From NCBI RefSeq assembly GCF_000813985.1, contig NZ_JWLJ01000001.1, positions 124,001 through 188,000 on the forward strand: a DNA stretch of 64,000 nt, given 5' to 3'. Both the position numbers and the translations under genes were made by a program. The notes under the pieces are model-generated. The model had not been told where the DNA came from and did not search any database. It saw only the letters and a list, made by a program, of their open reading frames with translations. This document shows positions 37,510 to 52,768 of this stretch, in pieces (the stretch's first letter is position 1; the number at the start of each line of letters is the position of its first letter). Origin of the DNA: Ruegeria sp. ANG-R. Its GTDB lineage: Bacteria; Pseudomonadota; Alphaproteobacteria; Rhodobacterales; Rhodobacteraceae.

Positions 37510-38379
37510 TCAAATGCGGTAGAAACGTTTTGATGTGCCATGGAACACATGTTCTTGGTTTAAGCTTGGGATGAGTTCCTGATGCCGGGAAACAACGTCC
37601 TTGTAAGTTGAAGTGAGGCTGTCGACCGGGAAATTCGATCCGAACATGCAGCGTTCGGCGCCAAACTGGGACAAGCAGTTTGAAACGATAGGCGCGACAC
37701 TTGCAGTGCTCCAGTTGTGATCGAACATTCCGAGACCCGAGAGTTTGCAATAGACCTGCTGCTGGCTTGACAATGCTGTCAATTCATCTGCCCACCTTTG
37801 CAAACCTTGTGGAGTCCGGTCATGTGGTGAACCTGCGTGGCACAGGGCTATTCGGGTTTCCGGAGCTTGTGCAAGGACATCTGCGGCTTGGTCCATTAAT
37901 TCAGGCAGCAGTTGAAGGTCGAAGGAAAGGCCGCGGGTGCCCAGTTGCTTCAGACCAGCCAAAAACGCGGGGTCTTTGAGCAGAGCGTTTGTGCCCGTTG
38001 ACGCATCTTCACCCGGAGCACGGCCAATGATCTGGCGAACGCCGCGCACGGAAGGCAGGGTTTGAAGGTGGTCAAGTTGTTCGTCCAGATTATCAGCTGT
38101 CAGATCACAGAACGCCACCTGCACCAACGGCCAGTCGGGGAACTGGTCGGCCACGGATTGCACCCATTGAGCCTCAGCCCAGGGGTCAGCAGCACCGACC
38201 TGAATATGTACCGAAGCGCCAAAGCCCATAGCTTTGGCATCGGCACGAAACTCAGGCAGCAGATAATCCCGCTGGATAGAAGACGGGTCACCAAAAAAAC
38301 GAACGGTGCCTTTCTCCATGAGCCATGGATAGTTCACAGCCGTGAGGTCCCACAGGTGGTGATGCGCGTCTATCTTCAT
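37510..38379 (-). CDS. Amidohydrolase-family lactonase-like protein (COG3618)
   Basis: A 289-aa TIM-barrel hydrolase related to 2-pyrone-4,6-dicarboxylate lactonase and L-fuconolactonase. The metal-type motif DAHHHLWDL is at the N-terminus. ALCHAGSPHD (about residue 180), YCKLSGLGMF and MFGSNFPVDSL follow the family pattern and it ends GTSKRFYRI. It opens a lactone or a similar cyclic ester, probably in the pathway of the adjacent island. Its ATG overlaps the stop of the upstream SnoaL-like gene (ATGA). Confidence 0.85.
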   Translation of the reverse strand: MKIDAHHHLWDLTAVNYPWLMEKGTVRFFGDPSSIQRDYLLPEFRADAKAMGFGASVHIQVGAADPWAEAQWVQSVADQFPDWPLVQVAFCDLTADNLDEQLDHLQTLPSVRGVRQIIGRAPGEDASTGTNALLKDPAFLAGLKQLGTRGLSFDLQLLPELMDQAADVLAQAPETRIALCHAGSPHDRTPQGLQRWADELTALSSQQQVYCKLSGLGMFDHNWSTASVAPIVSNCLSQFGAERCMFGSNFPVDSLTSTYKDVVSRHQELIPSLNQEHVFHGTSKRFYRI

Positions 38380-39377
38380 GGTGTTTCGATTCCCGTGGTG
38401 CGCGCCAGAATGTCAACTCCTTGACCATTCCAGAAGTGGAGCAGATCAATGAAGACCCAGTTTTCGGCCAGTTTGTCGCCAGCGCGGCGATAGATATCAA
38501 TCACCCTGAATTCGCCGGGTTTACCGGTGGCTGGCATACCCATGAACCCTCCCGATGGAACCGCAGTGAAGTTGGGCCAGCCAAAAAAACCGCCATAATG
38601 CCCCTCGGCCAGGCGGCAGACATGATTGGTTTTTGATCGGTCTGTGAAAGCGGCGCGGAACGGTCCAGAGTGTTGCTTGGCATAGCGTTCTATCGTGTAG
38701 GTCGCACCAATTCCTTCGGGGCCCCACCAGATCATGTCTTGGTGCCAGGTTCGGGCCAACTCATCCTCAAGTGACAATCCAGATTGCCATTGGCCGAGAT
38801 CGGAGATCATCGCATTGATGAGCGTTAGCGTCTTTTCGCCTTCCTCAACGGGCTGTTCGTTCAGCAGCAGCCCGTCATGGGGCATTGGTCCAGGTTGCAC
38901 CAAATGCGACGCCGTTTGAGGGGGGAACGGGTTCTGTCCGGCCTGCATCATCAGGTGCGGTATGTCGAAGTACATCGCCGTGTCGACAATCTTGTCACCG
39001 GCGACTTTATGGAATGCGCAATATCGCAGAAACGCCATCTTGCCGGTTGGTCGAATACCCAACCACGGTCGGTCGAACAGTCCCATCAAATGCCCCATGG
39101 ACACGACCCAAACGTCAGCCTCGTCACTCAGTGAGTTTTGCCCCGCAAACAAAATATCCACGCGGTTCTGCATGTGGGTAAGGCTTCCTTTCAGCGGTTC
39201 CCAGAATTGCCGGGCAACCTGTTCGACGCCGTGGATTTCGTCGAATGGATGAAAGCCGCGCCACTTCAGTTCTGACGCGCAGTATTGGCTCAGTACCTTC
39301 GGGGATTCATGCTCTGGCGCAGACACCAAGGCGGTGTGAAACGCGGAAACCAGGTTTTTTTCGGTCTGAAAGGTCAC
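38376..39377 (-). CDS. Two-domain SnoaL-like protein (1 of 3)
   Basis: About 333 aa from a proposed GTG at 39377. The frame is open to 39464 but that end lies inside the LacI operator, and a 333-aa product matches the other two copies (350 and 329 aa). Two NTF2-fold domains: residues about 30-150 (ELKWRGFHPFDEIHGVEQVARQF, then RPTGKMAFLRYCAFHKVAGDKIVDTAMYFDI) and about 190-325 (MIWWGPEGIGATYTIERY, then FTAVPSGGFMGMPATGKPGEFRVIDIYRRAGDKLAENWVFID). The W-x-G-P-x-G-I-G motif recurs in the homologue at 46031. Probably a lyase, isomerase or cyclase; the reaction is unknown. Confidence 0.8.
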   Translation of the reverse strand: MTFQTEKNLVSAFHTALVSAPEHESPKVLSQYCASELKWRGFHPFDEIHGVEQVARQFWEPLKGSLTHMQNRVDILFAGQNSLSDEADVWVVSMGHLMGLFDRPWLGIRPTGKMAFLRYCAFHKVAGDKIVDTAMYFDIPHLMMQAGQNPFPPQTASHLVQPGPMPHDGLLLNEQPVEEGEKTLTLINAMISDLGQWQSGLSLEDELARTWHQDMIWWGPEGIGATYTIERYAKQHSGPFRAAFTDRSKTNHVCRLAEGHYGGFFGWPNFTAVPSGGFMGMPATGKPGEFRVIDIYRRAGDKLAENWVFIDLLHFWNGQGVDILARTTGIETP

Positions 39378-39446
39378 GGCTTTTACCAGTTTAATCAAGA
39401 TTTTACGAGAGGCGCGAGGCCGGTGTGAGTCGGGTGTCAGGAGTAG

Positions 39447-39466
39447 TTTTGCATACGTATGCAAAA
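39447..39466. promoter_or_regulatory. LacI-type operator O1 (perfect palindrome)
   Basis: TTTTGCATACGTATGCAAAA, a perfect 20-bp palindrome centred on CG, the layout of LacI/GalR-family operators. It lies in the divergent promoter region, on the side of the leftward SnoaL-like gene. The likely repressor is the LacI gene at 47847. Confidence 0.8.
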
Positions 39467-39500
39467 AAGTCTTGCCTGATTTGGTATATGCGAATTACAG

Positions 39501-39520
39501 TTTTGCAAGCGTATGCAAAA
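39501..39520. promoter_or_regulatory. LacI-type operator O2
   Basis: TTTTGCAAGCGTATGCAAAA, the same palindrome with two mismatches in its left half. Its centre is 54 bp from that of O1, close to five helical turns, which would let one repressor tetramer or two dimers act together. It ends 21 bases before the ATG of the ABC ATPase gene. Confidence 0.8.
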
Positions 39521-39541: not shown

Positions 39542-40615
39542 ATGGCGGAAATTCAATTGCGGAACGTCGGCAAGAGATGGGGCTCATTCGTTGGGGTTCA
39601 CAACTTCGACCTGACGATTGCGGATCGCGAGTTCCTGGTGCTGCTTGGCCCCTCGGGCTGCGGCAAGACAACCACGATGCGCATGATCGCTGGCCTTGAA
39701 GACGTGACCGAAGGCGAGATTCTGGTCGATGGCAATGTGGTCAACGATCTGGAACCCAAAGACCGTGATGTCGCGATGGTGTTCCAGAGCTATGCGCTGT
39801 ATCCCAATATGAACGTCTACGAGAACATCCGCTTTCCGTTGAAGGTGCGGGGTATCGATCCGTCGACCCATGACGAGAAGGTGCGCCGCGCCAGCGCGAT
39901 GGTCGAGTTGGACGATTTCCTGCACCGTAAGCCTGCCGAGCTGTCAGGCGGTCAGCGACAGCGTGTGGCACTGGCTCGCGCCATTGTACGCGAGCCGAAC
40001 GTGTTCCTGATGGACGAGCCGCTCTCGAATCTTGACGCAAAGCTGCGCGTCTCAACCCGAGCGCAAATCAAGAACCTCAGCCACGAGCTGGCCGTGACGA
40101 CCATCTACGTGACCCATGACCAGATCGAAGCGATGACGCTGGCTGATCGTGTCGTGGTGATGAAGCAGGGCGTGGTGCAGCAGGTTGGTAGCCCGACCGA
40201 AATCTATGACCGGCCAGCGAATACTTTCGTGGCCAGCTTTATCGGCTCTCCCGCGATGAACTTGATGGATGGTGAGGTCTCGGGCGGCGTGTTCCGTGCC
40301 GAACATGTCGAAATTCCGGTCGATGCGCCGGATGGTCCGATGACGCTGGGATTCAGGGCCGAGGATGCCAGCCTTGCCGCAGGGCAGGGGCAGATCACCG
40401 CACCGATCTACACGCTGGAACTGCTGGGTGACGCGACCATGATTTCGGTCCGGGTCGGTGGTGCTCTGGTCTCGGTCAAAGCAGACAAAGCTTTTCGCGC
40501 AGAAATTGGCGAGCTGGTCTCGTTCTCGGTGCCAACAGAAATCTGTCATCTCTTCGAAGCTGGAAGCGGTGCGCGGATTGGGGAGCAACCCCACAAACAG
40601 CCCAAACGGGCTTAA
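39542..40615 (+). CDS. Sugar-type ABC transporter ATPase (MalK/UgpC type)
   Basis: A 357-aa cytoplasmic ATPase for the importer encoded next to it. Walker A GPSGCGKTTTMR (about residue 38), the ABC signature LSGGQRQRVALARAI (about 135) and Walker B VFLMDEPLSNLD are intact. The C-terminal about 110 residues are a TOBE-type regulatory domain (LGFRAEDASLA). CAGGGGGCA precedes the ATG. First gene of the plus-strand operon, just after operator O2; placing the ATPase first is unusual for CUT1 importers. Confidence 0.95.
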   Translation: MAEIQLRNVGKRWGSFVGVHNFDLTIADREFLVLLGPSGCGKTTTMRMIAGLEDVTEGEILVDGNVVNDLEPKDRDVAMVFQSYALYPNMNVYENIRFPLKVRGIDPSTHDEKVRRASAMVELDDFLHRKPAELSGGQRQRVALARAIVREPNVFLMDEPLSNLDAKLRVSTRAQIKNLSHELAVTTIYVTHDQIEAMTLADRVVVMKQGVVQQVGSPTEIYDRPANTFVASFIGSPAMNLMDGEVSGGVFRAEHVEIPVDAPDGPMTLGFRAEDASLAAGQGQITAPIYTLELLGDATMISVRVGGALVSVKADKAFRAEIGELVSFSVPTEICHLFEAGSGARIGEQPHKQPKRA

Positions 40616-40663: not shown

Positions 40664-41875
40664 ATGACACTCAAGACGATCCTCATGGCAGGCGCCATGT
40701 CCATCGCCACCACCGGTGCGTGGGCAGATTGCGCCTTCGAAAATGAAGTGCCGCTGAAATCGCTTTCTGCAGGGTTCGAAGCTTGGAAAGCGGTCACCGA
40801 CGCGATGGCTGAATGCGGCAATTTCAGCGCTTCGCTGGACCAGGAATTCCGTGAAAAGCAGCCCGAAGCATTTGCGGCAGATCCGGCGCTGTATCAGATC
40901 GGTGGTGTATCCAATGCGACGCTGGTGCCGTTGCTGAATGCGGGTACAATCCGCCCGCTGGACGATCTGGTCGAAAAGTACGGTCAGGATTTGCTGCCCA
41001 ACCAGTTGATCAAAGTGGATGGTAAGACCATGGCCATCGCGATGATGGTGAATGCTCAGCACCTGATGTATCGCGACGATGTTCTGGCCGAACTGGGCAT
41101 CGAAGAACCGAAATCCTATGATGACGTTCTGGCCGCGGCTGCCAAGATCAAGGAAGCCGGAGTCATGGACTACCCGATCGGGGGCACGTTCGAGACAGGT
41201 TGGAACCTCGGCCAGGAATTCATCAACATGTATATGGGTGAAGGCGGGTCGTTCTTTGGCGATGGCAACATGCCCGCGATCAACAACGCGCAAGGCGTTG
41301 AGGCGCTTGAGACGCTAAAGGCCATGACCGAGTATATGGACCCGGAATATCTGGTTTCTGACTCGACTTATGTGCAGCAGCAGTTCCAGCAGGGCAAGAT
41401 TGCCATGGCGAACCTGTGGGCCAGCCGTGCAGCCGCAATGAATGACGAAGCCGAAAGCCAGGTTGTTGGCAAGGTGACCATGGCCGCGGCGCCGATGGGT
41501 TCGGCAGCGCCAGCGACCACGATCTGGTGGGATGGCATCGTTTTGGCGTCGAACATGAGCGACGAAGAGGCCGATGCCGCCTTCCGCGTAGCGCTCGAGG
41601 GCATGGATGGCGATATGGTCAGCGCGAACAACGATGCCGCCGTTTGGCTGAGCCCGGCCTATTCCGCTGGCGATTTGGCCGCCGGAGCCGCAGCTTCCGC
41701 AGCAGGGGGCGCCAAGGCGTATCCTGCCTCGGGCCCGATGGGCATCATGCACACCGCCTTGGGTAACGGTTTGGCCGATTATCTGACCGGCGCCAAAGAT
41801 GCGCAAACCACGCTGGCCGACATCGAGGCGGATTACATCACCGCCGCGAAAGAGGCCGGTCTGATCAGCAACTGA
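40664..41875 (+). CDS. ABC transporter substrate-binding protein (MalE-like)
   Basis: A 403-aa periplasmic binding protein of the CUT1 type. The signal peptide is residues 1-21 (cut after AWA). The mature protein has the bilobal pattern: PLLNAGTIRPLDDLVEKYGQDL, then NAQHLMYRDDVLAELGIEEPKSYDDVLAAAAKI, then QQFQQGKIAMANLWASRAAAM and a tryptophan pair in TTIWWDGIVLAS. The WWDG aromatic pair could contact the ligand. The ligand is not known. A stable hairpin follows the stop. Confidence 0.92.
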   Translation: MTLKTILMAGAMSIATTGAWADCAFENEVPLKSLSAGFEAWKAVTDAMAECGNFSASLDQEFREKQPEAFAADPALYQIGGVSNATLVPLLNAGTIRPLDDLVEKYGQDLLPNQLIKVDGKTMAIAMMVNAQHLMYRDDVLAELGIEEPKSYDDVLAAAAKIKEAGVMDYPIGGTFETGWNLGQEFINMYMGEGGSFFGDGNMPAINNAQGVEALETLKAMTEYMDPEYLVSDSTYVQQQFQQGKIAMANLWASRAAAMNDEAESQVVGKVTMAAAPMGSAAPATTIWWDGIVLASNMSDEEADAAFRVALEGMDGDMVSANNDAAVWLSPAYSAGDLAAGAAASAAGGAKAYPASGPMGIMHTALGNGLADYLTGAKDAQTTLADIEADYITAAKEAGLISN

Positions 41876-41942: not shown

Positions 41943-42965
41943 ATGAATTCCCGGACATTTGCCGCCTTTGTTGGCCCCTCTGTCTTTATGATGCTTCTCT
42001 TTATCGCATTTCCGCTGGTCAGCGTGTTCAAGCAAAGCTTCTACGTCACGCAGCCGATCTATGAGACGGTTGAAAAGGAAACATGTACTCCGGGCTTTCT
42101 GACCCAAACCTGTGTGACCGAGCAAGTGTCGCAGCCAAAGCTGGATGAGCATGGCGAGATCATTACGCAAACCCAATATGTCGGATTGCAAAGCTATCGT
42201 AACGTTCTGGAGCCCGAACGGGCTTGGCGCGCCATAAGCGATGGCAGTTGGCATGTGCTTTCGACGATTAACTTCTGGAAGGCCCTGCGGTTCACGTTGA
42301 CCTTCACGCTGATCACTTTGCCGTTGGTGGTCGGGTGCGGTCTTGGAATTGCAATCCTTATCAACAACGCCGCTCGAGCGATCCGCGGACCGGTGATATT
42401 TGTCTCACTGCTGCCATTCATCATCACACCCGTGATCGGTGTGCTGGCGATCAACTGGTTGTTTCGCGGTGACGGGATTCTGACCGCAATGATGGAATGG
42501 TGGTTGAACCGCGACATCGCTTTGTTTGCGCAAGCGTGGACCATCGAGGTTCTGATGATGCTTTACCGCGTCTGGCACGTCGCGCCCTTTGCGGCGATCA
42601 TTTTCTATGCCGGTTTGCAAACGGTCAATCAGGACAGTTTGGAAAGTGCGGTGATCGACGGCGCTACTCGCTGGCAACGCCTGAAATACATCGTCATCCC
42701 GCATCTGATGCCCCTGATCATCTTTGTTGCGATGATCCACCTGATGGACTCCTACCGAGTGTTCGAAGAAATCGTGGGCTTCTCAAGCCAGGGCTATGTT
42801 ATCTCGCTGCAGTGGCTGACCTTCGATTACCTGACACCGGATCAGGCGGGGAACCGGTCGATCAGCCGGGCCTCGGCCAACTCGATGCTGACCATGATCG
42901 GTGTCGTCATACTGCTTATCCTGCCGCTGCGCCGCACGTGGCGCGATCACAAAGGAGGTCACTGA
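41943..42965 (+). CDS. ABC transporter permease 1 (MalF-like)
   Basis: A 340-aa inner-membrane permease. Helix 1 is FAAFVGPSVFMMLLFIAFPLV. A roughly 75-residue periplasmic segment follows, holding two cysteines (ETCTPGFLTQTCV) that could form a disulphide. Then come the core helices and the EAA loop (ESAVIDGATRWQRLKYIVIPHLMP). Pairs with permease 2, which starts 2 bases after its stop. Confidence 0.92.
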   Translation: MNSRTFAAFVGPSVFMMLLFIAFPLVSVFKQSFYVTQPIYETVEKETCTPGFLTQTCVTEQVSQPKLDEHGEIITQTQYVGLQSYRNVLEPERAWRAISDGSWHVLSTINFWKALRFTLTFTLITLPLVVGCGLGIAILINNAARAIRGPVIFVSLLPFIITPVIGVLAINWLFRGDGILTAMMEWWLNRDIALFAQAWTIEVLMMLYRVWHVAPFAAIIFYAGLQTVNQDSLESAVIDGATRWQRLKYIVIPHLMPLIIFVAMIHLMDSYRVFEEIVGFSSQGYVISLQWLTFDYLTPDQAGNRSISRASANSMLTMIGVVILLILPLRRTWRDHKGGH

Positions 42966-44702: not shown

Positions 44703-46034
44703 ATGGCAATCGAGTATCTCAAACGCGGCAAGTCTGACGCTGATCGGGCCGAAGATGACGCCAAAACCCGTGCGGTGGTCGAAGCCACCCTGAAAGACAT
44801 TGAAACCCGTGGCGACGCTGCCGTGCGCGAATTGAGCGAGAAGTTCGACAACTACTCGCCCGAGTCATTCCGCCTGTCGCAAGCGCAGATCGACGACCTG
44901 ATCGGTCAGCTGACAGACAGGGAATTGGCCGATATCAAATTCGCGCAGGAACAGGTGCGTAACTTTGCGCAGGCACAGCGCGACTCGATGTTGGATATTG
45001 AAGTTGAAACACTGCCCGGGGTCATCCTTGGTCACAAGAACATCCCCGTTCAGTCGGTTGGATGCTATGTTCCGGGTGGCAAGTTTCCGATGGTCGCCTC
45101 GGCCCATATGTCGGTGGCGACAGCCTCGGTCGCCGGGGTCCCGCGTATCATCGCTTGTACACCTCCGTTCAACGGCAGGCCCAACGCAGCCGTGATTGCT
45201 GCGATGCATCTCGGTGGCGCGCATGAAATCTATGTCATGGGTGGCATTCAAGCCATTGGCGCAATGGCGCTGGGAACTGAGACGATCGATCCCGTGCATA
45301 TGCTGGTCGGCCCTGGTAATGCCTTTGTCGCCGAAGCCAAACGCCAGTTGTTTGGCCGAGTGGGTATCGATCTGTTCGCAGGACCAACTGAGACGATGGT
45401 GATCGCCGACGAGACCGCTGCGGATGCTGAGTTGTGCGCGACTGACCTGCTGGGGCAGGCCGAGCATGGATACAACAGCCCCTGCGTGCTGCTGACCAAC
45501 TCACGCAAGCTGGCTGAGGACACCATGGCCGAGGTTGACCGCATTCTGGGCATTTTGCCGACCGCAGGCACTGCGAAAGTGTCTTGGGAAGAGTACGGTG
45601 AAGTCATCGTCTGCGACACTTATGACGAGATGTTGCAAGTCGCCGATGACATCGCATCTGAACATGTACAAGTCATGACGGATCGCGATGATTGGTTCCT
45701 TGATAACATGACGTGCTATGGCGCGCTGTTCCTGGGCCCGCGGACCAATGTTTCGAACGGTGACAAGGTCATTGGCACCAACCATACGCTGCCGACCAAA
45801 AAGGCTGGGCGCTATACTGGCGGGCTTTGGGTCGGTAAATACCTGAAAACCCACAGCTATCAGAAGGTTCTGACCGACGAGGCCGCAACGCTGATCGGCG
45901 AATACGGCTCGCGCCTGTGCATGTTGGAAGGCTTTGTCGGTCACGCCGAGCAGTGCAATGTCCGCGTGCGTCGCTATGGCGGCATCAACGTGCCCTATGG
46001 CGAAGGGGCGCCTTATCGAGACGCGGCTGAATGA
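44703..46034 (+). CDS. Histidinol dehydrogenase-family dehydrogenase (HpsN-like)
   Basis: A 443-aa NAD-linked, zinc-dependent dehydrogenase. GAGGATC precedes the ATG at 44703. Zinc-ligand positions of HisD are kept: Q and H in LGQAEHG, D in [11 protein letters not shown] in EGFVGHAEQ; the catalytic E-H pair is in ASEHVQVM. Its catabolic context, and differences around GDKVIG (GDYASG in biosynthetic HisD), point away from histidine synthesis. HpsN, which oxidises 2,3-dihydroxypropanesulfonate, is a known member of this branch. Here it would oxidise an alcohol, perhaps to a carboxylate in two steps. Its stop overlaps the next start. Confidence 0.88.
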
Positions 46035-47083
46035 CTGACAGGCAAACGCTGCACAAAGCCCTGATCGCTCCGCTCAGAGCTGCGATGTACGACTTCTCCG
46101 AGGCCGGCGTTCGTAAAGCGCTGGCCGAGTTGACGGAACCGGATGCTGTGTTTCACCTGTGCCATCCGTTCGGGGACAGCACAGGCAGCGATACCTTTTA
46201 TGACAGCGCCTACAAAGACCTCCTGAACGCATGGCCCGATCTGGAGCGGCGCGACTATATCGTCATGGCAGGTCCGGATGAAGCCGGGGCGGATTGGGTC
46301 GGTTGTGGTGGCTATTACACTGGCACCTTCACCGGGCCGTGGTTGGACATTCCGCCAACGGGCCATCAGGTGACAATGCGGTTCCACGAATTCTACCGCT
46401 TTGAGGACGGCAAGGTTGTTGAGATGCAGGCGCTTTGGGACATTCCCGAAGTGATGATGCAAGCCAATGCCTGGCCGATGGCCCCCAGTCTGGGGCGCGA
46501 ATGGCATGTGCCCGGCCCAGCCACACAGGACGGATTTGTAGCCGGGCCATATGACGAGGCCAAAGGTAAAGCGACGTGCCAGCACATCATCGACATGCTG
46601 GAGCATCTTAAGAAACACCCGTCGCAGGGCGGCCCCGAGGTGATGGAGATGGAGCGGTTCTGGCATCCGCGCATGAACTGGTACGGCCCTGCGGGGATCG
46701 GAACCGGGCGCGGCTATGCAGGGTTTCGCAACTGGCACCAGATTCCTTTCCTGAGTGGAATGCCGGACCGGGGTCGGTATGTGGATGAGATCACCTATCA
46801 CTTCTTCGGCGACGGCGAATACGCCGCCGTGACCGGCTGGCCCAATATGATCCAGACCGTCACTCATGACGGTTGGATGGGTATTGCGCCATCGGGCAAG
46901 AAAATCACCATGCGTAGCCTCGATTTCTGGCGGTTGGAGAATGGCAGAATCCGTGAGAACTGGGTTCTGGTGGATTTGCTGGACGCCTACCGGCAGCTTG
47001 GTGTTGACGTCTTCGCCCGTCTGCGGGAATTCAACAAGGCCCGAAACATGGGCCGCATTGAAATACCGGATGGAATGAGCTGA
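46031..47083 (+). CDS. Two-domain SnoaL-like protein (2 of 3)
   Basis: 350 aa, starting with ATGA overlap to the dehydrogenase gene. Domain 1 (about 30-150): [23 protein letters not shown], then [30 protein letters not shown]. Domain 2 (about 200-330): [23 protein letters not shown], then [35 protein letters not shown]. It is co-linear with the copies at 38376 and 48887. Histidines in the FHLCHPFG region could take part in catalysis. Its stop overlaps the SDR start (TGATG). Confidence 0.85.
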
Positions 47084-47847
47084 TGACCGATCTTCCCCGC
47101 ACCCCGTCGTTTTCCCTGAAAGGAAAAACCGCCCTTGTCACCGGGGCGTCTTCGGGCATTGGACAAGGCTGTGCCGTCGCACTGGCTGAGGCGGGGGCAC
47201 ATGTGGTCTGCGCCGCGCGCGGCGCGGTTCGTCTGAATGAAACGGTTGCTGCGCTTCAGGCGCAGGACTGGTCGGCCGAGGCGCGGGTGCTGGATCAGGG
47301 CGATCTGGATGCGTTGCAAACTCTGTTTGACGACCACTGTTTCGAAGTCGTAGTGAACTCGGCCGGATTGGCGCGTCATGGGCCAGCCGTTGAAACAACG
47401 CCCGACGATTTCGACGCAGTAACAAACGTCAACCTGCGGTCCGCCTATTTCCTGTCATCCTATGCGGCCAAAGCTCTGATGGCAGCGGGCAAGCGGGGGT
47501 CGATCATCCATATCTCCAGCCAGATGGGCCATGTGGGGGGCATCGACCGCGCGGTTTATTGCGCAACCAAGCACGGGCTTGAGGGCATGGTCAAAGCCAT
47601 GGCGGTTGAATGGGGCAAGCAGGGTATCCGGATCAACACGGTCTGCCCGACCTTTATCCGAACGCCTTTGACGCAATCGACCTTTGACAATCCTGAACGC
47701 GCCGCGTGGATCATGGAGAAGATCAAGCTGGACCGGGTCGGAGAGGTTGAGGACATCATGGGTGCGGTCGCCTATTTGGCCTCCGACGCCTCGGCACTGG
47801 TGACCGGAACATCAATGCTTATCGACGGAGGTTGGACGGCGGACTAA
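47083..47847 (+). CDS. SDR family oxidoreductase
   Basis: A 254-aa NAD(P)-dependent short-chain dehydrogenase. The dinucleotide site is TGASSGIGQG (about residue 20). The catalytic set is S (HISSQMG), Y and K (YCATKHG). It ends with the classical SALVTGTSMLIDGGWTAD. It probably oxidises or reduces a hydroxyl/keto group next in the pathway to the HpsN-like enzyme. Overlaps both neighbours by one or a few bases. Confidence 0.93.
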   Translation: MTDLPRTPSFSLKGKTALVTGASSGIGQGCAVALAEAGAHVVCAARGAVRLNETVAALQAQDWSAEARVLDQGDLDALQTLFDDHCFEVVVNSAGLARHGPAVETTPDDFDAVTNVNLRSAYFLSSYAAKALMAAGKRGSIIHISSQMGHVGGIDRAVYCATKHGLEGMVKAMAVEWGKQGIRINTVCPTFIRTPLTQSTFDNPERAAWIMEKIKLDRVGEVEDIMGAVAYLASDASALVTGTSMLIDGGWTAD

Positions 47848-48890
47848 TGGCCGAGAAAGTCACATCCCTTCAGGTCGCGCAACTTGCCGGTGTCAGCCAG
47901 TCTGCCGTAAGTCGCGTATTCACGCCCGGAGCCTCGGTCAGCAAGAAGACAGAAGAGAAGGTGCGCAAAGCCGCCGCGGAACTGGGATACCGCCCCAATG
48001 TGTTGGCGCGTGCGATGGTGTCGGGCAAAAGTCGCATCATCGGTTTGGTGGTCGCTTATCTGGACAATTATTTCTATCCCGAAGCACTTGAGAAGCTATC
48101 CAATGCGCTGCAGGAGCAGGGTTATCACGTCCTGATTTTCATGGCGTCCAGAACTGCCGGAAACATAGACGATGTGATGGATGAGATCCTCGATTATCAG
48201 GTTGACGGTGTCATTCTCGCCTCGGTCGCGATGTCGTCTGATATTGCAACGCGGTGCCAACAGGCAGGCGTTCCGGTTGTACTGTTCAACCGCAGTCAGG
48301 ACATAGACGGGATCACCTCGGTCACGTCAGACAATTATGCGGGGGGGCGCAAGGTGGCTGAGTTCTTTATCGCCGCCGGTCACAGCCGCATTGCCTATAT
48401 CGCTGGATGGCAGGGTGCATCAACGCAACGCGACCGCGAGGCCGGATTCCGTGCGGCACTCGGCGAGGCCGGTCAGGAATTGTACGCCTACGACATCGGA
48501 GAGTTCCTGACCGAAGATGCGCGGCTGGCCGCGCGCCGGATGTTTGATATCGAACCGCAGGAACGGCCAGATGCGGTCTTCGTTGCCAATGACCACATGG
48601 CGTTGGCTGTGATGGATGTCCTCCGATTTGAATTGGGAATGCGCATACCCGAAGACGTTTCGGTTGTAGGATACGACGACGTCCCTCAGGCAGGGTGGCT
48701 TGCCTATAACCTCACCACCATTCGTCAGCGGGCCAATTTGATGGTTGCCGAAACTGTTGACGCCTTGTTGGACCATATTGAAAACCCGACGACCGCCGCT
48801 TCGCGCAAGGTCGCGATTGATGGGCCGCTGATCGTGCGTACGTCGGCACGGCTGCCCAAGGGTTGGACACCGCAAAGGATGAAGACATGA
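47847..48890 (+). CDS. LacI family transcriptional regulator of the island
   Basis: A 347-aa repressor. The ATG at 47847 overlaps the SDR stop (TAATG). N-terminal helix-turn-helix SLQVAQLAGVSQSAVSRVF and the hinge region PNVLARAMVSGKS; the rest is a periplasmic-binding-protein-like effector domain (IIGLVVAYLDNYFYPEALEKL; DAVFVANDHMALAVMDVL). It lies inside the operon, so it would be autoregulated through the palindromes at 39447 and 39501. The inducer is presumably the imported compound or its product. Confidence 0.93.
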   Translation: MAEKVTSLQVAQLAGVSQSAVSRVFTPGASVSKKTEEKVRKAAAELGYRPNVLARAMVSGKSRIIGLVVAYLDNYFYPEALEKLSNALQEQGYHVLIFMASRTAGNIDDVMDEILDYQVDGVILASVAMSSDIATRCQQAGVPVVLFNRSQDIDGITSVTSDNYAGGRKVAEFFIAAGHSRIAYIAGWQGASTQRDREAGFRAALGEAGQELYAYDIGEFLTEDARLAARRMFDIEPQERPDAVFVANDHMALAVMDVLRFELGMRIPEDVSVVGYDDVPQAGWLAYNLTTIRQRANLMVAETVDALLDHIENPTTAASRKVAIDGPLIVRTSARLPKGWTPQRMKT

Positions 48891-49876
48891 AAGGCTTTGA
48901 TCCCAAGTTCCGGGATTTCCCCGATTATATCATCGGTATCACCAGAGAGATTTGGGAAGACCGGGGGATCGCGACGCTGCACGACTATTACAGCGAGGAC
49001 ATCGTTGTCCGTTCACCCGGGTCGGTGGTTCTGGGCAATCAGAATGTGATCGGCGCGACTATGGCAACGCTGGCCGAATTCCCGGATCGGCAATTGCTGG
49101 GTGAGGATGTGATCTGGTCCGGCACGCCCGAAGAAGGGATGCTGAGTTCTCATCGCATCCTGTCAACAGCCACGCATCTGGCCGAGGGTGTTTACGGCAA
49201 GCCCACGGGTACAAAACTGCGCTATCGGATTTTGGCCGATTGCCACGCGATTGATAATCAGATCAACGACGAATGGCTCATCCGCGATCAGGGCGCCATC
49301 GTGCGCCAGATGGGATGGGAGCCAAAGGAATACGCCGCCGATCTGATTACCCGCGAAGGAGGTAAAGAGAGCTGCGTCAAGCCTCTGACCCCCGAAACCG
49401 ACCAGCCGGGGCCATATAAGGGCCATGGAAACGATAACGAGTGGGGACAGCGATACGCAGATATTCTGACCCGGATCATGAATGCCGATATGGGCGCGAT
49501 CGAGTCCGAGTATGACCGGGCTGTCCAGTCAGAATATGTCGGCGGCGTTACCGGTCATGGCTGGGATGCGGTTGACCGCTTCTGGATGGGTTTGCGGGCG
49601 AGTTTCCCGAATGCTGAATTCAAGATCGAGCATCAGATCGGCCGCAGTGATCCGAACATGCCGCCGCGTGCGGCAATACGTTGGAGCCTTTGGGGCAAAC
49701 ATGACGGCTGGGGCGCGTTTGGCGCACCGACGGGAGCACAGGTATATGTCCTGGGCATCAGCCACGCCGAGTTCGGCGCCCTGATTGGCGAACAGCCGCA
49801 GCTGCGCCGCGAATATACTCTGTTCGATGAAACCTCGGTCTGGAAGCAAATCCTGTTGCAGAGTGGTGAGGTCTGA
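48887..49876 (+). CDS. Two-domain SnoaL-like protein (3 of 3)
   Basis: 329 aa; the ATG at 48887 overlaps the lacI stop. Domain 1: YIIGITREIWEDRGIATLHDYYSEDIVVRSPGS, with a catalytic-type pocket but a long insert. Domain 2: EYDRAVQSEYVGGVTGHGWDAVDRFWMGLRASFPNAEFKIEHQIGR, then GAPTGAQVYVLGISHAEF. It is more diverged from the other two copies and lacks their WYGPxGIG motif. Probably a related reaction on another intermediate. Confidence 0.8.
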   Translation: MKGFDPKFRDFPDYIIGITREIWEDRGIATLHDYYSEDIVVRSPGSVVLGNQNVIGATMATLAEFPDRQLLGEDVIWSGTPEEGMLSSHRILSTATHLAEGVYGKPTGTKLRYRILADCHAIDNQINDEWLIRDQGAIVRQMGWEPKEYAADLITREGGKESCVKPLTPETDQPGPYKGHGNDNEWGQRYADILTRIMNADMGAIESEYDRAVQSEYVGGVTGHGWDAVDRFWMGLRASFPNAEFKIEHQIGRSDPNMPPRAAIRWSLWGKHDGWGAFGAPTGAQVYVLGISHAEFGALIGEQPQLRREYTLFDETSVWKQILLQSGEV

Positions 49877-50068: not shown

Positions 50069-51034
50069 ATGTCGGAATCAACCATCTCCTCCCGCATCGT
50101 TCGCTACGGCGAGCTTCAACCCTGCAAAACCGCGTTTATCGATGCCCACACACCGGGCAGCGATCAGAAAGAGAATTTCACGATCATCGGCGGTGGTGTC
50201 TCGGAATCTCCGGACCAGCATGTGCACATCACTGACAAGATCGGCTTCAACATCGGTGCTGCGGGCCAGCCCCCGAGATGCCGAAACTCGCTGCACAGCC
50301 ACACGACGGCCGAGGTCTTTTTCGTCGCCAAGGGCCGTTGGCGATTTTTCTGGGGCCGGTACGGCACGGCTGGTGAGTTCATCGCCGAGGAGGGTGACAT
50401 CTTCAACATCCCCACCGGTATCTTCCGCGGCTTCGAGAACGTCGGTCAGGACTACGGCATGATCATGTCGATCCTTGGCGGTGACGACGCGGGCGGCGGG
50501 GTGACCTGGGCCCCTCAAGTCATCGAAGATGCGCAGGCGCATGGGCTGATGCTGGGCGATAATGGCGTGCTTTACGATTCCAAAAAAGGGCAGGAATTGC
50601 CTCACAACGTACACCCGATGCCTCTGCTGACCGAAGAGCAGTTGAAGGATTACCCCGAAGTTCCGGTTGAGGATGTCGTCGGAAAATATGTCGCGCGGTA
50701 TTGGGACCTGATGGCGTTGTCGGCCAACAAGCCCGCACAGGTGATTGGCGAAAACGGAATGATCAAGGACAAGCCCGGGTTCGAGGTTGATTTTCTTGGG
50801 CGTGGGTCTGCTGTGACCGAACCGGTTGCAGCTGAAAAACCTGTGGTTCTGATGCCCGCCAGCGGCCATTGGCGTGTTTCGATCGGCGATCATAACACCA
50901 CTTTATCTACCGGCGACACAGCTTTGGTATTGCCCGGCGAGACCTATAGTGCCGCGCCATCGATGACCGGGCACGCAGGACTGTACCGGATCACCGCAAC
51001 CGATGACCCGGCAGGAGCGACCTGGACAGGATGA
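50069..51034 (+). CDS. Bicupin protein (putative metal-dependent dioxygenase or isomerase)
   Basis: A 321-aa protein with two cupin folds. Cupin 1 (about 70-130): RNSLHSHTTAEVFFVAKGRWRFFWG, then FIAEEGDIFNIPTGIFRGFENVG, giving H-x-H, E and a missing or shifted last histidine. Cupin 2 (about 255-310): PASGHWRVSIGDHNTTLSTGDTALVLPGETY, reduced. The length and layout resemble ring-cleaving cupin dioxygenases, but isomerases share it. The start has only a weak ribosome site. Its stop overlaps the methyltransferase start (ATGA). Confidence 0.8.
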   Translation: MSESTISSRIVRYGELQPCKTAFIDAHTPGSDQKENFTIIGGGVSESPDQHVHITDKIGFNIGAAGQPPRCRNSLHSHTTAEVFFVAKGRWRFFWGRYGTAGEFIAEEGDIFNIPTGIFRGFENVGQDYGMIMSILGGDDAGGGVTWAPQVIEDAQAHGLMLGDNGVLYDSKKGQELPHNVHPMPLLTEEQLKDYPEVPVEDVVGKYVARYWDLMALSANKPAQVIGENGMIKDKPGFEVDFLGRGSAVTEPVAAEKPVVLMPASGHWRVSIGDHNTTLSTGDTALVLPGETYSAAPSMTGHAGLYRITATDDPAGATWTG

Positions 51035-51633
51035 CCGCTGACCCTGACAACACTCAGGCCGTTTATGAGCGGCAAGCCACGGAATACGACAAACGTCGCT
51101 CGAAAGCGCTGTTCGAAGCGCGCTGGCTGGCGCGCTTCACGGCCAGCCTCAAGCCGGGGGACCATGTGTTGGATCTGGGATGCGGCACTGGCGATCCGAT
51201 TGCACGCTGGTTCATGGCTGAGGGGTTCGCAGTAACGGGTGTGGACTTTTCCGATGCGATGCTGGCCCTTGCCCGGGATCGTTGGCCGGATGGGGACTGG
51301 CAAAATGCGGATATGCGGAACTTTGAGTTGGACCGGCAGTTCGAGGGTATCATCGCTTGGAACAGCTTTTTCCATCTGACGGCGGATGAGCAAAAAGACT
51401 GTATCGCCCGCATGGCACGGCATTTGCGGCCCGGTGGGATGCTCATGTTGACCGTTGGACCTCGCGCCGGGGAGGTAAATGGCACTGTGGCGTCGGAACT
51501 CGTCTACCACGCGTCACTGTCTCCAGCCGGTTACGCGACCTGTCTCGAAGAAAATGGACTGCAAATGACCGGGTATCTTGCCGAAGGCCCCGAAACCAAA
51601 AGCCATACGATCCTGATGGCACGAAAACTGTAA
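51031..51633 (+). CDS. SAM-dependent class I methyltransferase
   Basis: A 200-aa cytoplasmic methyltransferase. Motif I is VLDLGCGTGDPIARWF (about residue 47), followed by GVDFSDAMLALARDRW and the later NSFFHLTADEQ and HLRPGGMLMLTVGPR. It closes a coupled pair with the cupin and precedes the MetE-like gene by 10 bases. A methyl donor enzyme beside a methyl-acceptor-type zinc enzyme suggests methyl handling in the pathway. Confidence 0.88.
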   Translation: MTADPDNTQAVYERQATEYDKRRSKALFEARWLARFTASLKPGDHVLDLGCGTGDPIARWFMAEGFAVTGVDFSDAMLALARDRWPDGDWQNADMRNFELDRQFEGIIAWNSFFHLTADEQKDCIARMARHLRPGGMLMLTVGPRAGEVNGTVASELVYHASLSPAGYATCLEENGLQMTGYLAEGPETKSHTILMARKL

Positions 51634-51643
51634 GGAGGTTCTG

Positions 51644-52768
51644 ATGGCAATCAAAACCACACATGTTGGATCTCTGCCCCGAACGCAAAACGTGGTGGAT
51701 TTCATTTTCGCCCGTGAAAACGGTGACCCCTACGACGCGGCTGCGTTTGATGCCTGCATGACCGATGGGGTCTCAGAAACAGTTCGTAAACAGGTTGAAG
51801 CCGGTATCGATATCGTCAGTGACGGCGAGACTTCAAAGATTTCATATGCGACCTATGTCAAGGATCGATACACCGGGTTTTCTGGCGACAGTCCCCGAAA
51901 TGCGCCTGCGGACCTGAAGATGTTCCCCAGCTTTCTGCAACGACTTGCCGATGACGGTGGTACACCCCAATACGCACGACCGATGTGCACCGGTGAAGTT
52001 CGCTCAAAAGGGCAAGGCGAGTTGGAAAAGGATATCGCCAACCTTACGACCGCAATGCAGCAGCATGGGGCAGAGCGCGGTTTCATGAACGCCGCGTCGC
52101 CCGGTGTGATCTCTCTGTTTTTGCAGAACGACTTCTACTCAACGCGCGAGGCTTATTTGGCGGCGTTGGCCGACGCCATGAAAGAGGAATACGAAACCAT
52201 CGTGGCTTCTGGTCTGGATCTGCAACTGGATTGCCCCGATCTCGCCTTGTCGCGCCATATGCTATTCACCGATCTCTCGGACGATGAGTTCGTCAAGATT
52301 GCTGACATGCATGTCGAGGCTCTGAACCACGCGCTTCAGAACGTACCACAGGATCGCGTGCGCGTGCATATCTGTTGGGGCAACTATGAGGGCCCACATT
52401 GCTGCGATATTGCGATGGACAAGGTGTTCAGCACCCTGATGGCGACCAAATCGCGCTATGTCCTGTTTGAGACCTCGAACCCCCGCCACGCTCACGAGTG
52501 GACGGTGTTCCGCGACCGCAAGGCCGAGATACCCGATGACAAAGTTCTGGTGCCCGGTGTGGTTGATACGACCACTAACTTCGTTGAGCATCCCGAACTC
52601 GTAGCCCAGCGGATCGAGCGCTTTACGCAGATCGTCGGCGGAGAACGGGTAATCGCAGGTAGCGACTGCGGCTTTGGCACCTTCGCCGGATTTGGCGCAG
52701 TCGACCCTCAGATCGCCTATGCCAAGTTGTCGGCGCTGTCTGAGGGGGCAAAGCTGGCCTCGGCATGA
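51644..52768 (+). CDS. MetE-core-like zinc methyltransferase family protein
   Basis: A 374-aa protein matching only the C-terminal catalytic barrel of cobalamin-independent methionine synthase (full MetE is about 750 aa). AAGGAGG precedes the ATG. The N-terminus has TTHVGSLPRT. A zinc quartet in the order of MetE is visible: H242 and C244 (VHICWGN), E276 (LFETSNPRH) and C342 (GSDCGFG). Relatives of this size include methyl- or alkyl-transfer enzymes and epoxyalkane:CoM transferase. In a catabolic operon it may remove a methyl group or activate a thiol; it need not make methionine. Confidence 0.85.
   Translation: MAIKTTHVGSLPRTQNVVDFIFARENGDPYDAAAFDACMTDGVSETVRKQVEAGIDIVSDGETSKISYATYVKDRYTGFSGDSPRNAPADLKMFPSFLQRLADDGGTPQYARPMCTGEVRSKGQGELEKDIANLTTAMQQHGAERGFMNAASPGVISLFLQNDFYSTREAYLAALADAMKEEYETIVASGLDLQLDCPDLALSRHMLFTDLSDDEFVKIADMHVEALNHALQNVPQDRVRVHICWGNYEGPHCCDIAMDKVFSTLMATKSRYVLFETSNPRHAHEWTVFRDRKAEIPDDKVLVPGVVDTTTNFVEHPELVAQRIERFTQIVGGERVIAGSDCGFGTFAGFGAVDPQIAYAKLSALSEGAKLASA

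Follow-up and report, generated by a model that had tools for sequence, protein, structure and literature searches.

A double operator of a linked LacI-family protein probably cages the promoter of an ABC transporter/dehydrogenase operon in Ruegeria sp. ANG-R

Introduction

In Escherichia coli, the lac and gal systems have two operators placed around a promoter for one LacI-family repressor, the former with a loop held by the LacI tetramer and the latter with the two-operator loop of GalR. Operator spacings are longer in these systems than in the one described here, and looping relies on a tetramer tail or on HU; in LacI, it is a C-terminal leucine-heptad tail that makes the protein a tetramer.

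Shorter distances were described for other members of the family. Multiple sites are present in about 20% of the LacI-regulated operons, and the distances between them peak at 13, 22 and 32 bp (PMC4052901). RafR of Enterobacteriales and ScrR of Burkholderiales were described with sites 21–22 bp apart, and GapR of Rhodobacterales was described as a global regulator of central carbon metabolism, unlinked to its targets in most genomes (PMC4052901).

We analysed a stretch of 64,000 nucleotides of Ruegeria sp. ANG-R (contig NZ_JWLJ01000001.1, positions 124,001 to 188,000), hereafter the window, which contains two similar palindromes, O1 and O2, upstream of an ABC transporter gene row (Table 1). 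As described for RafR and ScrR, the sites are 20-bp CG-centred even palindromes in the usual area upstream of a start codon, the regulator is encoded with a sugar-type ABC operon, autoregulation is likely and obligatory double sites exist; the distance differs, being here 54–56 bp, which is not one of the named peaks, and enclosing an entire core promoter (PMC4052901). The spacing of five turns and the lack of a visible tetramer tail also set this locus apart from lac and gal. GapR is likewise a LacI-family protein with a 20-bp palindrome from the same bacterial group, and it differs from the present case, in which one local cluster at a single locus is concerned (PMC4052901). The locus is thus a local LacI regulon of known kind, with an unusual and rarer layout, the 54–56 bp double operator. 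With good confidence, we propose that this double operator of the LacI protein encoded at 47847 cages a sigma-70-type promoter of a + strand ABC transporter/dehydrogenase operon, with the repressor gene in the same row.

The operator pair and its gene row

The original prediction described a perfect palindrome and a copy with two differences, 54 bp apart and near five helical turns. Coordinates and letters are exact, and the distance from O1 to O2 was measured as 54 bp start to start, corresponding to 5.1 turns at 10.5 bp. With 20 bp, a CG centre and, in O1, perfect symmetry, the sites have the form described for LacI-family operators, CG-centred even palindromes of 16–22 bp (PMC4052901).

Table 1. 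Features around the operator pair, in window positions
Feature	Position	Strand	Remarks
Predicted operator O1	39447-39466	.	TTTTGCATACGTATGCAAAA, perfect 20-bp palindrome; -35 box begins 5 bp downstream
Predicted operator O2	39501-39520	.	TTTTGCAAGCGTATGCAAAA, 2 mismatches to O1; overlaps end of -10 box and predicted transcription start
Predicted -35 box TTGCCT	39472-39477	+	TTGCCA in most other genera shown
Predicted -10 box TACAGT (TAnnnT)	39496-39501	+	18-bp spacer; O2 begins on the final T of the box
ABC transporter ATPase, UgpC/MalK type	39542-40615	+	first gene of the predicted operon
Solute-binding protein	40664-41875	+	
Permease 1	41943-42965	+	
Permease 2	start about 42967, end 44121	+	
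SnoaL-like protein	start about 44210, end 44692	+	Pfam
HisD/HpsN-fold dehydrogenase	start about 44703, end 46034	+	
Two-domain SnoaL-like protein	46031-47083	+	Pfam
SDR dehydrogenase	47083-47847	+	
LacI-family repressor (putative), 347 aa	47847-48890	+	helix GVSQSAVSR; probably binds O1 and O2; gene lies in the transporter gene row
"SnoaL4"	48863-49876	+	no NCBIfam hit; start codon uncertain; name from sequence reading; in relatives by tblastn
Genes called cupin, methyltransferase and MetE-like	50069-52768	+	follow SnoaL4; cupin name from sequence reading, not from a family hit
Two-domain SnoaL-like gene, divergent	38376-39389	-	start codon uncertain, about 39378-39398
Amidohydrolase	37510-38379	-	closest to the NCBIfam model L-fucono-1,5-lactonase, with a score far under its cut-off

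Dinucleotide shuffles of the window (100) gave a mean of 0.00 matches, and none of the 100 had two matches at three or fewer mismatches. In the whole genome (4,684,550 bases), O1 and O2 are the sole matches at that level; the looser core TTGCANNCGNNTGCAA occurs at O1, O2 and two more places, and its reversed control at one place. A matrix scan of the + strand of the window identified, beyond O1 and O2, no site of at least 5 bits. A chance origin was rejected considering the window shuffles, the uniqueness in the genome and the reversed control of the family scan described below, and a global regulon was rejected because there is one locus in the genome at three or fewer mismatches and no extra + strand site in the window at 5 bits or above. 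A terminator or RNA hairpin was also rejected, since the predicted start lies inside O2, the palindrome has no loop and no terminator-like site was observed. The two additional places of the looser core are copies of another palindrome, TTGCAACCGGTTGCAA, on contig 3, 4.3 kb apart (G000:C3:225898-225913 and 230200-230215); this pair possibly represents the operators of another LacI-family regulator.

Conservation of the sites in relatives

A search with the LacI protein retrieved 39 loci, and 24 loci of Ruegeria type, with their intergenic region, were used for phylogenetic footprinting. Both sites are present in all 24, at 54 bp in 23 of them and at 55 bp in one (L006). In the alignment of these loci with the window (25 sequences), the mean column identity was 0.978 for O1 and 0.96 for O2, with 0.931 for the -35 region, 0.947 for the -10 box, 0.767 for the middle of the gap, 0.62 to the left of O1 and 0.901 for the leader after O2; among the coding columns, it reached 0.926 in the opening codons of the ATPase gene and 0.732 in the N-terminal codons of SnoaL1. 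The operator columns are better conserved than the first ATPase codons, the leader, the middle of the gap and the left spacer. A locus from a MAG (L026) begins inside the ATPase gene, with its promoter out of view, a Salinarimonas locus with a LacI of 58% identity (L028) has a single site at the equivalent place, and the loci with LacI matches of at most 41% identity (L029-L041) have no + strand site at four or fewer mismatches.

We also scanned 295 family genomes, sampled at close to one per genus and amounting to about 1.1 Gb. A match at two or fewer mismatches is present in 57 of them, and the reversed control gave none. Counting the two sites of the window, 73 of the 75 match places are in loci holding genes of the window's cluster, and the other two (L097 and L111) are in loci without any cluster gene; by our own estimate, assuming uniform letters, about two places would be expected by chance in such an amount of DNA. 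Where the cluster is broken up (G142, G180, G123, G230 and G256), the separate units each have their own sites. The scatter over many unrelated places that would speak against the original prediction was seen neither in the genome nor in the 295 family genomes.

The promoter between the sites

A TTG-type -35 box and a TAnnnT -10 box at a spacing of 18 bp, within the 16–19 bp of a sigma-70-type promoter, are located between O1 and O2. With 8 of 12 matches, this promoter was not listed by a generic promoter scan that needs 9 of 12. The same anatomy was observed across genera, in the order O1, 5 bp, TTGCCA, 18 bp, TAnnnT and O2, with 0, 1 or 2 bp before O2 for spacings of 54, 55 or 56 bp, respectively. 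The columns 6, 7 and 8 after O1 are T, T and G in 20/20 loci of the 55-bp class, and in 12, 11 and 11 of the 12 of the 54-bp class (window included). The -10 box has T30 (20/20), A31 (20/20) and T35 (19/20) in the 55-bp class and T30 (10/12) and A31 (11/12) in the 54-bp class. One locus is shifted by one base (L137) and, in the 56-bp class, one is off the -35/-10 pattern (L152) and one fits it partially (L118). O1 and O2 therefore sandwich one predicted sigma-70-like promoter, that of the + strand transporter operon.

The ATPase promoter is readable in 107 genus-level loci, of which 48 show a pair of sites, 38 a single site and 21 none; the spacing counts exclude loci that lack the ATPase start or have fewer than 100 or fewer than 130 bases upstream (two separate counts). 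Genus-level loci gave 50 site-to-site distances, among which 54 bp occurs 11 times, 55 bp 20 times and 56 bp 6 times, 37 in all. These 37 are found among the 48 pair loci, the other 11 of which have different distances (122–158 bp in 9 of them); in 10 of these 11, the ATPase gene faces the binding-protein gene.

The regulator

The regulator gene of the row codes for a linked LacI-family protein, with Pfam LacI (HTH, PF00356) and Peripla_BP domains. An orthologue at E of at most 1e-80 was found in 125 of the 295 family genomes, in 56 of the 57 with the motif versus 69 of the 238 others (Fisher p 6e-24, with no correction for kinship). In the single exception (G164), which has the motif without a LacI orthologue, the contig bearing the site ends inside the cluster. 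From the 69 genomes with LacI and no motif match, we fetched 66 LacI-selected loci, omitting three in which LacI is at a contig edge (G119, G168 and G227), and scanned them (1.17 Mb) with a matrix trained on 50 Ruegeria-type sites, for which reason the scores of the Ruegeria-type loci are not independent. This identified 59 sites of at least 17 bits, by eye mostly ahead of the first gene of a unit, and none with the reversed matrix. At a threshold of 9 bits, matches are present in 112 of 133 readable ATPase promoters, and in 6 of 133 with the reversed matrix. The motif is thus conserved by phylogenetic footprinting and co-occurs with its regulator, as described for operators of this family, yet a site of at least 17 bits is present in 41 of the 66 LacI-selected loci and absent from 25, several of which are cut by contig ends and others of which have weaker or different-looking palindromes.

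Operator letters also change together with the recognition helix. It reads GVSQSAVS in 106 and GVSRSAVS in 20 of 131 rows. At operator position 8, the half-sites attributed to GVSQSAVS proteins read T (177), A (108), C (10) or G (7), and those of the arginine proteins have C (22) or A (16) and no T; 7 of 181 sites were not assignable to a LacI. We also paired sites and proteins by LacI row, using only sites of at least 16 bits with positions 8, 9, 12 and 13 masked (100 of 129 LacI rows had one). In this pairing, T at position 8 is present in 84/84 glutamine and 0/16 arginine rows, and C in 6/84 glutamine rows (besides T) and 15/16 arginine rows, the arginine LacI of G126 being without the C; at a looser cut of 13 bits, 3 of 132 glutamine-linked sites lack T. 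An arginine is expected to pair with G:C and a glutamine with A:T.

In a quick effector-domain tree, the glutamine/arginine state switches at least 6 times, with 5 independent switches on the best tree. Two independent pairs are well supported, both as expected for the loss of T, a number at which the sign test cannot reach significance. We also noticed that seven genomes (G105, G123, G133, G140, G180, G230 and G256) have one glutamine-type and one arginine-type LacI orthologue in separate clusters. In five of them (G105, G123, G140, G180 and G230), all glutamine-linked sites have T and the arginine-linked site is without it, one glutamine-linked site each in G123, G140, G180 and G230 also having a C half-site; in G133 and G256 no LacI lies on the contig that bears the C-type site. 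G081 departs from the pattern, with a C-type site at an ATPase promoter and, on another contig, a glutamine-type protein as its only LacI at E of at most 1e-80. A search of the PMC open-licence literature brought up nothing related to this covariation. The LacI family is here a natural test of the recognition code, in which glutamine versus arginine tracks T at operator position 8.

Because of the co-occurrence, the covariation of helix and operator and the sites ahead of separated cluster units, O1 and O2 very probably serve as operators for the LacI protein encoded at 47847, which we infer to bind them. The original prediction had named this protein as the regulator and suggested looking for the 20-mer next to LacI orthologues in related genomes; both the gene linkage of the match places and the presence of the orthologue in nearly all motif genomes speak for it.

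Proposed mechanism

In the mechanism that we propose, based on the sequence and its comparison with relatives, a repressor dimer on O2 would cover the -10 box and the start point when no inducer is present, and a second dimer on O1 would abut the -35 box, RNA polymerase being excluded from both sides of the caged promoter. A substrate or intermediate would bind the repressor, which would then leave the operators, and transporter, enzymes and repressor would be made together, presumably from a single transcript of the gene row, forming a negative feedback loop. Repression is the predicted direction of control, with induction as its counterpart. O1 would probably also shut the divergent SnoaL-like/amidohydrolase unit, which starts about 60 bp from it. 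The operator would offer a ready promoter reporter for finding the inducer and, hence, the substrate of the catabolic cluster.

The divergent unit deserves consideration, since its control by O1 is plausible from the short distance between its start and O1 in some relatives. In the window, the SnoaL-like start (39389 as chosen) is 58 bp to the left of O1, and elsewhere in the pair class the first aligned SnoaL-like residue is 9–80 bp from O1. Where fewer than 15 bp separate the SnoaL-like protein start from O1 (L162, L179 and L184), the divergent promoter must overlap the O1–O2 interval, and O1 should therefore matter for the SnoaL-like gene. No minus-strand column past O1 reaches 60% agreement in 38 loci aligned with a gap-free O1 anchor, and a divergent promoter was not recognised there.

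Alternative explanations

The palindromes could be bound by another LacI-family paralogue or by an unrelated factor, with the linked LacI acting on other targets, and the genome probably does contain other LacI-like genes, as we obtained 17 first-look LacI-similarity candidates (7 scored), one of them passing E of 1e-80; the two match places without any cluster gene point in the same direction. Such a factor would, nevertheless, have to account for the co-occurrence of motif and LacI, the gene linkage and the joint change of helix and operator letter, also within the five genomes holding both LacI kinds, and about two places are what chance would give in some 1.1 Gb. We consider this explanation very improbable. 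A division of labour, in which O1 serves the SnoaL-like/amidohydrolase unit and O2 the transporter operon, was the view of the original prediction, in which one site touches each unit. It agrees with the three loci with very short SnoaL-like distances and with those in which the binding-protein gene faces the ATPase gene, where the sites are mostly 122–158 bp apart and the ATPase-side site begins 29–42 bp before the ATPase start. In the 54–56 bp class, on the other hand, the positions of both sites relative to the + strand -35 and -10 boxes hardly vary, the 38 loci show no minus-strand column past O1 with 60% agreement and O1 is kept in 4 of the 38 without a SnoaL1 homologue of at least 50% identity (L076, L121, L152 and L201), two of which carry a more distant SnoaL-like gene. 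That view holds in part only, since both sites flank the same + strand promoter, that of the operon; one site for each unit is a possibility that we regard as unlikely.

The caging of one + strand promoter also bears on looping, which the original prediction considered probable. With O1 and O2 separated by five turns and on the same face, the dimers bound there could touch, or the sites could be bridged by a tetramer, forming a promoter mini-loop for which the spacing would be kept. The 37 of 50 distances at 54–56 bp, all near five turns, would suit this reading, as would the looping that is reported for lambda CI when single operators are separated by 5 or 6 turns (PMC8053113) and the LacI-family spacings of 22 and 32 bp, helix multiples which were read as cooperative binding (PMC4052901). 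The LacI proteins, however, have 326–353 residues in 113 of 114 cases (301 in one), counted from the first aligned residue, and the window LacI ends in ...ARLPKGWTPQRMKT, by inspection without a leucine-heptad C-terminus; matches to E. coli LacI stop at query residue 312–316. In addition, the variation among 54, 55 and 56 bp is located mostly between the -10 box and O2, and O1, -35 and -10 stay in a constant register, which is what a distance dictated by the promoter would predict, the gap of 34–36 bp being the size of the core promoter within it. Single-site relatives are also common (38/107). The helical phase of the 11 other distinct spacings gave a Rayleigh p of 0.07 (n = 11 values). Altogether, the looping part of the original prediction is not favoured by these data, and we consider looping improbable here. 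We would likewise give little credit to a wider scenario, in which tail-less LacI dimers five turns apart cooperate through a promoter-trapping mini-loop as one switch for two divergent units, and a natural glutamine-to-arginine switch co-changes regulator and operators, also between paralogous clusters of one genome. The five-turn double operator constitutes a test case for the need of looping.

The catabolic cluster

In the PMC open-licence literature, we found no description of the cluster or its substrate and no paper with the letters TGCATACGTATGCA; RegPrecise or the supplements of PMC4052901 may list the regulon. The nearest solved structures to the HisD-like enzyme are 8v35 (E 7e-113) and 8wwe (3e-108), both HpsN, with histidinol dehydrogenase at 4e-70. 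HpsN is a DHPS-3-dehydrogenase with the motif G-R-Y-A/S-H, which contains a sulfonate-binding histidine (PMC11382572), and HisD has G-S-A-P-L in its place; the window enzyme has G-G-K-F-P-M there. DHPS catabolism was rejected as the pathway of the cluster, the HpsN motif being absent. The 15-letter stretch with G-K-F-P-M is exact in 104 of 112 sequences, has near variants in 7 and was not found in one. By the motif described in PMC11382572, the sequence of the HisD-fold enzyme would thus fit neither class, and enzymes with G-G-K-F-P-M perhaps constitute a third substrate class in the fold.

Three SnoaL-like proteins are recognised by Pfam in this one cluster (38376, 44210 and 46031), two of which match in two stretches each, and the gene at 48863 may code for a fourth, an unusual expansion of a small fold within a catabolic operon. 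We also observed that, in loci of many genera (L072-L091), the ATPase is about 74–86% identical to that of the window, and the binding protein and permease 1 are about 40–44% identical, a mosaic that looks as if one ATPase and its promoter were common to two transporter cores.
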